This document shows, piece by piece, positions 40,484-43,684 of a DNA stretch of 57,266 nt (position 1 is the stretch's first letter; each line of letters opens with the position of its first letter). A program made the translations under genes and the position numbers. The notes under the pieces were generated by a model. That model made no database searches. It had not been told where the DNA came from and saw only the letters and a program-made list of their open reading frames with translations. The DNA comes from Prescottella subtropica (GTDB lineage Bacteria; Actinomycetota; Actinomycetes; Mycobacteriales; Mycobacteriaceae): the NCBI RefSeq assembly GCF_005434945.1, contig NZ_SKCH01000024.1, positions 1-57,266 on the forward strand, read 5' to 3'.

Positions 40484-41929
40484 CTAGATCGTGATGGCAC
40501 CGGTCGCGAGACCGGCGATTCCGGTGATGGCGCCGAGGGTCACGGCCACGAACAGTGCCGCTTCCCAGGGTGAGAACAGGCGCTTGCCCGCCTCGCGTCG
40601 GGTGAGAGCGAACAGGATGGTGCCGGGGGCGTAGACGATGCACGAGAGCAGCAGGAATTCGAGCCCGGCCGCGACGATCATGAATGCGGTGTAAAAGGTG
40701 GCGATCCCGGCGAACACCAGTTCCCGGGTGCGCCGCTCGGGCTGGATGTCGGTGTAGGTTTCGCGGGTCCAACCCAGCTTGAGCGCGTACGCGGCGGCCA
40801 GCAGGTACGGCACCAGTGACAGCGCACTGCACAGCTTGAGCGTGAATGTGAACGCGTCGTCGGAGAACAGTGTCGTGAACAGCACCAGTTGGATGAGGAC
40901 GGTGGTGAACAGCAGGGCGACCACCGGGACGGTGCGGTCGTTGACCCGGGACAGGAACGACGGCATGTCGCGGTCCTTCGCGGCGACGAACAGCACCTCG
41001 GAGGCCATCAGTGTCCACGCCAGGTAGGCGCCGAGGACCGAGACGATCAGACCGATGCTGATGAACCAGGCACCCCAGGTGCCGACGATCGACTCGAACA
41101 CCTGCGACATCGACGGCTGCTGCAGTGCCGCGAGGTCGTCGCGCGGCATGATGCCGTACGCGACCATCGTCACCGACGCGAAAATGGCCAGCACACTGAG
41201 GAATCCGAGCACCGTGGCGCGACCGATGTCCTCGCGTTTGCGGGCGTAGCGGGAGTACACGCTGGCACCCTCGATGCCGAGGAACACGAACACGGTCACC
41301 AGCATCGTGGCACGCACCTGCTCGAACAGCGACTCGGAATAGGCATCGCCGCCCAGGAAGTTGTCGGCGAAGATTCCGGCGTCGAAGAAGAACAGTGCGA
41401 CGACGATGAAGAACAGGATCGGCACCAGTTTCGCGACCGTGACGATCTTGTTGATCGTCGCGGCCTCCTGGACGCCGCGCAGCACCATGAAGTGGAACGC
41501 CCAGATGCAGACGGTCGACAGCAGCACCGCCCAGATCGTGTTGCCGTCCCCGAAGATCGGCAGCACCTGGCCGAGCGTCGACTTGATGAGCACCCAGTAG
41601 CTGACGTTGCCGACGCACGTGCTGGCCCAGTATCCGAATGCCGAGAAGAAGCCGAGGTACTCGCCGAACCCGGCCTTCGCGTAGGCGTAGACACCGGCGT
41701 CGAGGTCGGGTCTACGGACGGCGAGCGACTGGAACACGAACGCCAGCATCAGCATTCCGGTGCCGGCGACGGCCCAGGCGATCAGTGCGCCGAGTCCGCC
41801 GGTGGCCTGGCCGAAGTTGCGGGGCAGCGAGAACACGCCCGCCCCGACCATGGACCCGACCACCATCGCCGACAGCGTCGGCAACGCCATCGTCCGGGTC
41901 GTCTTCTCCGAGTTCTCTGCAGTCGTCAC
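40484..41929 (-). CDS. arcD: Arginine/ornithine antiporter (APC superfamily)
   Basis: Exchanges external arginine for internal ornithine or a similar pair. The 481-residue protein has 12 to 13 membrane spans and the APC signature [12 protein letters not shown] near the start. It is the partner of arcA, 13 bp upstream and on the same strand. The GTG at 41929 has GAGGTGG upstream; the open frame reaches 42025 but adds only a hydrophilic tail. A divergent promoter region of 200 bp (41930-42129) separates it from the small-peptide operon, and no other gene is visible there. Confidence 0.92.
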
Positions 41930-42129
41930 ATCGGCCCCCACCTCGTGATCGTGTGCCGCATTCTGTGGCGGGTGCGATCCTCGCAGCAGTCCACGGCTTG
42001 CGCCCGACGCCACGCCGGACGCCACCGGTTCGATACCGATCGGGATTTTTCGCTCGTTTCACCCCGAACAAGCGTTAGAACCTGTTACAAATCGATCATC
42101 ACCGTTAGCTCGACGAAGAAAGAAGCGGC

Positions 42130-42279
42130 ATGGGATCCCTCACCAACCTGCTCCAGCAGAACGGCGTCACCGACCCGGGCAACCAGATGAAGTTCCTGGT
42201 CCTCAAGCCGTTGCTCGACGCCATCAAGCAACTCGACGGCCTCAGTGCCGGCTCGCTCGGCTCGCTCGGCCTCAGCTGA
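42130..42279 (+). CDS. Small amphipathic peptide 1
   Basis: A 49-residue frame: MGSLTNLLQQNG, a hydrophobic helix FLVLKPLLDAI, then SAGSLGSLGLS. It has no signal peptide and no Cys. A purine-rich AAAGAAG precedes the ATG. It is the first of four short genes of similar style (three begin MGS), all on the plus strand with individual ribosome-binding sites. This size and composition recall the small channel-forming PorA/PorH peptides of the mycolate outer membrane in corynebacteria, but sequence similarity cannot be claimed. Confidence 0.7.
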   Translation: MGSLTNLLQQNGVTDPGNQMKFLVLKPLLDAIKQLDGLSAGSLGSLGLS

Positions 42280-42328
42280 CCCGTCCGCGGTCGACTCTTC
42301 CCACATCACCGACGAAGGAGGCGCCCGG

Positions 42329-42448
42329 ATGGGTTCCGTCGAAAAACTGCTCGAGATGAACAACGCGAACTTCTCACTCGGACTCACGAAGTTGATGCCG
42401 GTCCTCAAGGCGATGCTCGCGCTCGACACCCTCAGCGTCGGCAACTGA
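42329..42448 (+). CDS. Small amphipathic peptide 2
   Basis: A 39-residue frame (MGSVEKLLEMNN, then LTKLMPVLKAMLALDTL) preceded by a strong AAGGAGG seven bases before the ATG. The pattern of Leu/Met every three to four residues predicts one amphipathic helix. No signal peptide. It lies 49 bp after peptide 1. Confidence 0.7.
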   Translation: MGSVEKLLEMNNANFSLGLTKLMPVLKAMLALDTLSVGN

Positions 42449-42512
42449 CGCCGTTCCCCCTCCCGTGCAGCGCGATCCGCGCCGCACCCCCTGTTCGACA
42501 AGGAGAATCCCC

Positions 42513-42635
42513 ATGACCTCGGCCGAGAACCTCACCACGTTCCTCAATGCCCTGCACGCATTCTTCAGCGGCGTGCAGAGCGGTTCGCTGTCCGGCATCA
42601 GCTCGGACGCGCAGAGCTCCAATCCCGGCCAGTAG
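42513..42635 (+). CDS. Small peptide 3
   Basis: A 40-residue frame (MTSAENLTTFLNALHAFFSG, then a Ser/Gly-rich end) with AAGGAGA six bases before the ATG. The first half forms an aromatic-rich amphipathic helix; the second is flexible. It differs from the other three in its start but shares size and position. Confidence 0.68.
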   Translation: MTSAENLTTFLNALHAFFSGVQSGSLSGISSDAQSSNPGQ

Positions 42636-42676
42636 TACCGGACCATCCCCCACCACAACGAAATTCAGGAGTATTC

Positions 42677-42784
42677 ATGGGTTCGCTCTCCGATTCCTTC
42701 GACGTCGTCGAAACGCTGATCCCCGTGATCGGCGATCTGCTGAAGAACGTGCTCGGCGGTTCGATGGTCTGGCCCGAGAACTGA
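42677..42784 (+). CDS. Small amphipathic peptide 4
   Basis: A 35-residue frame (MGSLSDSFDVV, then ETLIPVIGDLLKNVLGG, ending SMVWPEN) with AGGAG five bases before the ATG. The helix resembles that of corynebacterial PorA-type peptides in composition. It is the last gene of the set; a 19-bp terminator follows 11 nt after the stop. Confidence 0.7.
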   Translation: MGSLSDSFDVVETLIPVIGDLLKNVLGGSMVWPEN

Positions 42785-42795
42785 CGCACCGACGA

Positions 42796-42834
42796 GAGCG
42801 CCCTCGACCGAACCGGGTTCGGTCGAGGGCGCTC
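42796..42834 (+). terminator. Strong terminator of the small-peptide operon
   Basis: A perfect 19-bp stem (42796-42814 with 42816-42834) around a single central base, 11 nt past the stop of peptide 4. It also faces the end of the convergent dienoyl-CoA-isomerase-like gene, 19 nt away, and can stop both. Confidence 0.8.
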
Positions 42835-42853
42835 CGCCGTATGGGGAGTCCGG

Positions 42854-43684
42854 TCAGCGCCCCCGGAACTCAGGCGGACGTTTCTGGAAGACGGCGGTGA
42901 TCGCTTCGGTGAGGTCCTCCGACGGCAGGAATGCCGCGTTCCAGGCGGCGACGTAGCGGAGGCTGTCGTGCACCGCGGCGGATCGGCCGTGGTCGAGGAC
43001 GTCCTTGATGCCGTGTACGACGAGCGGCGGGTTGGCCGCGATCTCGGCGGCGGTGGCGTGTGCGGCGGCGAGGACGGCGTCGGCGTCGTCGAACACGTCG
43101 TTGACGAGGCCGATCTTCTCGGCGCGGGCGGCGTCGATGTCCTTGCCGGTGAGGGCGAGTTCCCGCAGGTGCCCGTCGCCGATGATCGCGGGCAGTCGGG
43201 CGAAGCTGCCCATGTCGGCGACGATCGCGACCTTGACCTCGCGGATGCTGAACTTCGCGTCGGTGCTCGCGTAGCGGATGTCGGTGGCCGAGATCAGGTC
43301 GACGCCGCCGCCGATGCACCAGCCCTGGATCGCCGCGACGACGGGTTTGCGGCAGTCGGCGACGGCGTTGACGCCCGCCTGCATCCGCTTGATCAGGTTG
43401 TGGAAGTCGGTGCGCGGACCGGCCTGTGCCTTGTCGGCGAGGACGGCGCCGAACTCGCCGCTCATCGCGGGCAGGTCGAGTCCGAACGAGAAGTGCTTGC
43501 CGGAGCCGGCGAGGACGACGGCCCGCACGTCGGGGTCGGCGTCGAGAGCGGCGAACACCCGGGGAAGTTCCTCCCAGAAGTCCGGGCCCATCGCGTTGCC
43601 CTTGCCGGGGCCGGTCAACGTCACCTGCACGACGTGGTCCTTGCGTTCGACAGCGAACGCCTTCCAGCTCTGCTGCTCCGTCAT
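42854..43684 (-). CDS. Enoyl-CoA hydratase/isomerase, dienoyl-CoA-isomerase-like
   Basis: A 276-residue crotonase-fold enzyme. The active-site helix is GWCIGGGVDLISATDIRYAS, and three acidic residues line up with delta(3,5)-delta(2,4)-dienoyl-CoA isomerase (ECH1): Asp129, Glu149 and Asp157 in VADMGS. This predicts double-bond shifting during breakdown of unsaturated fatty acids rather than plain hydration. The ATG overlaps the TetR stop by one base (TAATG), so both are translationally coupled. The frame upstream of 43684 belongs to TetR. Confidence 0.85.
   Translation of the reverse strand: MTEQQSWKAFAVERKDHVVQVTLTGPGKGNAMGPDFWEELPRVFAALDADPDVRAVVLAGSGKHFSFGLDLPAMSGEFGAVLADKAQAGPRTDFHNLIKRMQAGVNAVADCRKPVVAAIQGWCIGGGVDLISATDIRYASTDAKFSIREVKVAIVADMGSFARLPAIIGDGHLRELALTGKDIDAARAEKIGLVNDVFDDADAVLAAAHATAAEIAANPPLVVHGIKDVLDHGRSAAVHDSLRYVAAWNAAFLPSEDLTEAITAVFQKRPPEFRGR

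Follow-up and report, generated by a model that had tools for sequence, protein, structure and literature searches.

A conserved set of four small, signal-less peptide genes in Prescottella subtropica: candidate peptides of the mycolate outer membrane

Four short tandem frames on a 57,266-nt contig of Prescottella subtropica (the whole stretch of DNA that was analysed, hereafter the window) were shown to be real coding genes, conserved as a set in related genomes. Judged by analogy, the encoded peptides, P1 to P4, are most likely similar in kind to PorA and PorH of Corynebacterium glutamicum without being their recognisable kin. We propose, with a probability of roughly 45%, that they are serine-mycoloylated peptides of the mycomembrane that co-assemble, probably as a channel.

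Results

Organization of the locus

The set consists of ATG frames of 49, 39, 40, and 35 codons, arranged in tandem on the + strand, with the following features. G011 is a second genome of the window's genus, and G208 belongs to another genus.

42030..42129, + strand: upstream region on the promoter or leader side, 79% identical to G011
42077-42093: AGAACCTGTTACAAATC, a stretch common to the window and G011, in the upstream region of the operon
42116..42125, + strand: weak Shine-Dalgarno-like stretch of P1, AAGAAAGAAG
42130..42279, + strand: P1, 49 aa, family A (MGSLxxLL...LDGLS...GSLGS tail), 92% identical in G011 and 80% in G208
42314..42321, + strand: Shine-Dalgarno sequence of P2, GAAGGAGG
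42329..42448, + strand: P2, 39 aa, family A, a paralogue of P1 (MGSVEKLL...LDTLS)
42500..42505, + strand: Shine-Dalgarno sequence of P3, AAGGAG
42513..42635, + strand: P3, 40 aa, family B (MTSxENL...GS...)
42667..42671, + strand: Shine-Dalgarno sequence of P4, AGGAG
42677..42784, + strand: P4, 35 aa, family C (MGS...IPVIGDLL...GGS)
42796..42834, no strand assigned: perfect 19-bp inverted repeat with 1 nt between its arms

The first-pass annotation of this DNA had described three peptides starting with MGS and none with a signal peptide. Both points held: P1, P2, and P4 begin with MGS and P3 with MTS, and inspection by eye revealed no signal peptide. It had also credited each frame with a good ribosome-binding site. 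The Shine-Dalgarno sequences of P2, P3, and P4 are indeed strong; that of P1 is weak, so the description was slightly generous. Upstream of the P1 relatives, we found GGGAGG in G208 and GGAGG in the metagenome-assembled genome G101.

In the window, the set is flanked by a divergent amino-acid permease gene, followed by an arginine deiminase gene, and by a convergent enoyl-CoA hydratase gene. P1 to P4 presumably form one co-transcribed operon. The inverted repeat at 42796-42834, which is likely the terminator shared by the convergent operon and enoyl-CoA hydratase gene, is perfect, as previously described; it is without a T-run and does not appear in the list returned by the terminator scan. 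On the other side, the proposed divergent promoter region is divergent by position only, since a scan of 41900-42900 found no sigma-70-like promoter.

Evidence that the frames are coding

The frequency of such chains by chance was modelled with 3000 first-order Markov 900-mers having the composition of the region. No such frame was present in 2501 of them and a single one in 490; nine contained a chain of two, and chains of three or more did not occur. The longest chain on the opposite strand of the window was one. In G011, all four frames are kept in the same order and with the same start sites. Identity between the window and G011 was 90, 79, 86, and 94% for P1 to P4, respectively, versus 51-64% for the spacers and terminator region and 79% for the 100 bases upstream. 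Pooled over the frames, pS was 0.249 and pN was 0.085, with 21, 9, and 31 differences at codon positions 1, 2, and 3, respectively; for P4 alone, the two synonymous changes were too few to show selection. Chance chains and conservation therefore agreed in confirming the four short frames as genes, and P1 to P4 are presumably translated. The first-pass annotation had staked its reading on conservation of the frames and of their Shine-Dalgarno sites in related genomes, and such conservation was found.

Distribution in related genomes

The search for a conserved quartet in relatives, which had been suggested earlier, was successful: in addition to G011, the full quartet was present in two other genera, in G208 and in G101, a metagenome-assembled actinomycete (locus L056). 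A triplet of families A, B, and C was found in Rhodococcus maanshanensis (G074, L054). Genomes of the R. globerulus group, g23 (G185, which is R. globerulus, L055; G105; G092; and G244), carried the triplet together with a different downstream peptide. This peptide, family D (MFGSLSxLGPLLTAL..., 41-48 aa), was observed in L010, L020, L034, L060, and the same stretch of L055, and lies roughly 0.5 kb downstream of the P4 relative in g23 genomes. Upstream of the g23 sets (L010, L020, L034), R. globerulus has a TGTGA-N6-TCACA palindrome, which we take to resemble CRP/GlxR sites; it was less perfect in G105.

The P4-type profile matched 11 of 401 genomes of the taxonomic family, in 5 genera, at an E value of 6e-6 or better, and the P1/P2-type profile clearly matched 9 of the 401. 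Within the window's genus, 2 of 14 genomes carried the set and the rest had no detectable copy. Among 235 order-level genomes, and apart from the copy in the window, the family-C profile gave no match with an E value below 0.02. Several weaker candidates were left out as chance matches: family-C matches at E 0.008-0.047 inside longer frames of G032, G178, G275, and G308; weak order-level matches, likewise inside longer frames, in G178, G496, G544, and G577; a weak family-A match in G093; and early matches at E 0.04-0.09, with the exception of G185, which later proved to be real. A scan of named genomes yielded 3 confirmed loci among 39 pattern matches.

Two decayed copies were also found. G115 (g21) has a P4-type frame interrupted close to the start, and family A gave no match there; G128 (g23) lacks the family A gene and carries a damaged family B frame alongside intact C and D. 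Such decay, together with the patchy occurrence, implies that the set is dispensable. Carriage by plasmids or phages as the cause of the patchy spread was unsupported, because plasmid records gave no match for P1 or for a g23 P4 relative, phage records gave no match for P1, and viral contigs gave no confirmed match for the P1 and P4 types.

Gene neighbourhoods

The flanking genes differed from group to group. They encoded a permease (by reading) and a GDSL hydrolase in G011; metallo-beta-lactamase-fold and luciferase-like proteins in R. maanshanensis; an ABC exporter and a GGDEF protein in g23 (G105); CrcB and a LigT-like protein in G208; and, by reading of the frames, phosphoribosyltransferase-like and phosphomannomutase-like proteins in the metagenome genome G101. 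No neighbour was common to all the groups looked at. Taken together, the unrelated neighbours, patchy spread, and decay indicate a self-sufficient, dispensable set.

The GDSL hydrolase gene that adjoins the set in G011 (L059, 5820-6959) encodes a GSLGSSGSPGSSGSLGSG tail, and an SGNH hydrolase of C. glutamicum is on the list of modified proteins in PMC11066868. GSLGS-type tracts were found in this hydrolase, in two mycoloyltransferases of the P. subtropica genome, and in one further frame of that genome with a signal-like start; as a mark of envelope proteins, the tract was set aside as a hint, its bearers having mostly been examined as envelope proteins or as neighbours.

Three peptide families

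P1 and P2 are paralogues and form family A with their relatives (11 rows), which keeps M1, G2, S3, L7, L8, N11, D36, and S39. Family B (P3; 7 rows, 35-50 aa) keeps M1, T2, S3, N6, L7, G24, and S25, and family C (P4; 8 rows) keeps M1, S3, V10, P16, V17, D20, G27, G28, and S29. Each family had exactly two invariant serine columns, in rows that are not independent of one another and had been retrieved with the profile of their own family: S3, kept in 11/11, 7/7, and 8/8 rows of A, B, and C, respectively; and a second serine, S39 in A (11/11), S25 in B (7/7), and S29 in C (8/8), which presumably sits behind a helical stretch. At thresholds, P1 to P4 matched nothing in Pfam or NCBIfam; a match of P4 to DUF4112 was sub-threshold (E 0.11). 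Families A, B, and C are thus three peptide families absent from the Pfam and NCBIfam copies searched.

The peptides contain no cysteine and have net charges of 0, 0, -2, and -4. They are probably helical, and the first-pass annotation had called all four amphipathic helices. This description suited P4 and P3, whose best hydrophobic moment was reached by 1 and 38 of 2000 shuffles, respectively; P2 was no better than its shuffles (1091 of 2000) and P1 was little better (239). For the C. glutamicum peptides, the corresponding counts (n = 2000) were 261 with PorA and 0 with PorH, so hydrophobic moment does not decide channel function.

An intracellular role, in which the small proteins would serve in regulation, resemble chaperones, or together act as toxins on the cell's own membrane, is the least probable of the readings that we weighed. 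It is compatible with the lack of signal peptides by eye and with the short hydrophobic or amphipathic segments, but it leaves the invariant serines and the co-inheritance of several families unexplained. Moreover, since no neighbour is common to all groups, there is no constant antitoxin or regulator gene, and an Rfam search with the palindrome gave only sub-threshold matches to animal microRNAs.

Tandem, leaderless, amphipathic peptides are typical of leaderless bacteriocins and phenol-soluble modulins. P1 to P4 resemble both (among the bacteriocins, the aureocin A70 type) in being encoded in tandem, short, leaderless, and amphipathic, and secretion as a leaderless multi-peptide bacteriocin or as surfactants resembling phenol-soluble modulins was therefore weighed. 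The amphipathic character of P4 and P3 and the patchy distribution fit this reading, which we nevertheless consider improbable. Leaderless multi-peptide bacteriocins are cationic and have adjacent transporter or immunity genes, and phenol-soluble modulins are secreted amphipathic surfactant peptides with a dedicated exporter. Unlike the bacteriocins, P1 to P4 are neutral to anionic; they also have serine/glycine-rich tails and no recognisable peptide exporter beside the set in the window. Nor was one recognised among the immediate neighbours in G011, G208, R. maanshanensis, and the metagenome genome, although g23 does have an ABC exporter. The order-level sample, which gave no clear family-C match beyond the taxonomic family, also speaks against this reading. 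The toxin-set and surfactant readings, both raised by the first-pass annotation, gained no specific support.

Comparison with PorA, PorH, and ProtX

Small helical mycomembrane channels have been described for Corynebacterium. C. glutamicum PorA, PorH, and ProtX, of 38-57 aa, are described as lacking signals (PMC11927696, PMC12632848, PMC5310785). They are reported to reach the mycomembrane by an unknown route and to be O-mycoloylated on serine by Cmt1/MytC, and a model of PorA with PorH shows a ring on which the modified serines form a belt (PMC5310785, PMC11066868, PMC11927696, PMC12632848).

P1 to P4 share with PorA and PorH a small size (35-49 versus 45/57 aa), the lack of a signal, a presumed helical structure, tandem genes, and conserved serines. 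They differ in their N-terminus (M-G/T/S-S versus MD or ME) and in their number, with three families and four genes here versus two genes in the corynebacterial system. The PorA and PorH genes are placed between groEL2 and ppk2 (PMC3792995), whereas the peptide set had other neighbours in the genomes examined, with neither groEL2 nor ppk2 among those of the window or of the other genomes.

The profile search against the PorA/PorH families that had been recommended did not reveal a relationship. The NCBIfam models of the Corynebacterium PorA/PorH channel are NF033925, NF033937, and NF033938. The PorA/PorH models gave no match for P1 to P4 at an E limit of 10, at which HMMER filters drop most matches above about 0.1; as a control, the C. 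glutamicum PorA and PorH sequences matched. NF033925 and NF033938 had no match in the P. subtropica genome at E 0.01, the C. glutamicum control being positive. In four hhalign comparisons of families A and C with PorA and PorH, probabilities were 0.4-5.3% (nominal P 0.007-0.14) and not significant, versus 70% for PorA against PorH. Unguided, hhalign aligned S39 of P1 with S15 of PorA, again not significantly. Used as a single query, PorH gave one weak match in 121 genomes of the family. The PorA/PorH parallel drawn in the first-pass annotation thus stands as a working analogy, based on size, the lack of a signal by eye, tandem peptides, conserved serines, and a Cmt1-like gene, and it is consistent with the order-level sample, where family C had no clear match beyond the taxonomic family; it fails as family membership, given the NCBIfam result, the non-significant A and C profiles, and the different neighbours.

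On the reverse strand of L057 (G065, g3; Corynebacterium-like by a PorH match over cut-off), tandem porH-porA-porH-porA-like genes form a four-peptide version of the corynebacterial set. On the reverse strand of L062 (G154, g4), a GroEL-like C-terminus precedes four small frames (47-53 aa), and the PorA model matched this stretch weakly (E 0.009) and across internal stops.

Family A keeps [LV]DxxS in 11/11 rows, and among 951 serines of coding-like frames in the window, 4 lie in LDxxS. The motif also occurs in C. glutamicum at PorA S15 and at PorH S56, the latter presumably in the context L-D-N-F-S. Mycoloylated S15 of PorA stands in L-D-V-L-S according to a primer table, and residues 54-57 of PorH are given as NFSS (both PMC5310785). 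This likeness was noticed after the fact; the motif is not kept in any of the four aligned PorH relatives and fails at ProtX S37 (context VTAS), and the authors of PMC5310785 state that the three mapped mycoloylation sites have no consensus.

ProtX (Cg2875; 38 aa, no signal) begins with M-T-S, as does family B (35-50 aa). According to PMC5310785, its C-terminal Ser37 is mycoloylated and it ends in Ser-Ser. The likeness of ProtX to family B, which amounts to a few residues, is a lead only.

Mycoloyltransferases and MspA porins

The P. subtropica genome had twelve matches to the PF00756 esterase family, eleven of them over cut-off. When five of these proteins were compared with solved structures, four listed C. 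glutamicum Cmt1 first and the fifth listed Ag85C. The strongest Cmt1-like protein had Cmt1 as its best PDB match (7.8e-73, versus 2.7e-42 for PS1); of the other Cmt1-first proteins, two were clear and one was barely so (3e-50 versus 3.8e-49). Cmt1 orthologues have been reported in Rhodococcus, and the O-mycoloylation sites described for C. glutamicum are mostly serines, among serine and small residues (PMC11066868). The conserved serine of P1 to P4 mostly lies in a small-residue context.

Two MspA porin genes were identified in the P. subtropica genome, and MspA matches were present in 18 of 19 genomes tested, the exception being G208. R. maanshanensis (G074) had 19 matches to the MspA model, several of which were pieces of one frame, versus 0-3 in the other 18 genomes. 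MspA-type porins (PF09203; PorARc, PorARr, PorBRr) are proteins of about 20 kDa with a signal peptide and are unrelated to P1 to P4, in which no PF09203 domain was matched. MspA-type cell-wall channels have been reported in R. corynebacteroides and R. ruber (PMC9233653). Their coexistence with the peptide set in this genome is a difference from the PorA/PorH system, and with two MspA genes present, permeability does not require a second channel.

This point also favours a reading in which the peptides are mycoloylated and anchored in the envelope without forming a channel. As structural or surface-coating peptides similar to ProtX, they would change surface hydrophobicity or link the mycomembrane to the wall. 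The M-T-S start and length of the P3 family, similar to those of the 38-aa ProtX (PMC5310785), and the report that ProtX and PorH are wall-linked (PMC12632848) are in agreement with such a role. The ProtX resemblance is confined to a few residues, and the co-encoding of three to four distinct peptides points to a hetero-oligomer; we consider a non-channel envelope role somewhat unlikely.

Discussion

Our preferred reading is that the four genes form an operon whose products, small helical peptides without signal sequences, would reside in the mycolate outer membrane, in a taxonomic family that, as a whole, presumably makes mycolic acids. P1 to P4 would be exported by the same signal-independent route, itself unknown, as PorA, PorH, and ProtX. 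A Cmt1/MytC-like transferase would then mycoloylate the conserved serine (S39 in P1, S36 in P2, S25 in P3, and S29 in P4), and the lipidated peptides may co-assemble into a hetero-oligomeric helical channel or an anchored surface complex. Translation, helical structure, export, mycoloylation, mycomembrane location, co-assembly, and channel activity are all inferred.

We commit to mycoloylated, co-assembling mycomembrane peptides because size, lack of a signal, tandem genes, serines, and a Cmt1-like gene are shared with the corynebacterial system. Our odds stay below one half because the LDxxS likeness is post hoc and not universal and because the alignment of S39 with S15 is not significant. 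The reading is further weakened by the lack of a sequence-family link to PorA/PorH, by the dispensability of the set, and by the low amphipathicity of P2, which does not exceed that of shuffles, and of P1, which does so little, although PorA did no better than P1 in that test. It is possible, though doubtful, that the set forms a hitherto unnamed, multi-subunit helical peptide channel built from three families and coexisting with MspA in Rhodococcus-type bacteria; if so, this would be a second porin class outside Corynebacterium. A small channel-forming protein, with a small subunit size, was reportedly obtained from R. erythropolis in 2000. Assuming that R. erythropolis belongs to g23, the g23 set could comprise its genes.

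MspA-type porins have been described for Mycobacterium, Nocardia, Tsukamurella, and Rhodococcus (PMC9233653), and PE/PPE proteins for slow-growing mycobacteria (PMC11927696). Among the open-licence papers listed for this subject, no title or opening of an abstract described such peptides in Rhodococcus; as open-licence papers alone were covered, this is weak evidence of novelty. A conserved signal-less set in genomes of the Rhodococcus type would extend the known range of small helical mycomembrane peptides. The peptides would also provide short test objects for two processes: the crossing of a membrane without a signal, and the modification of serines by Cmt1-like enzymes.
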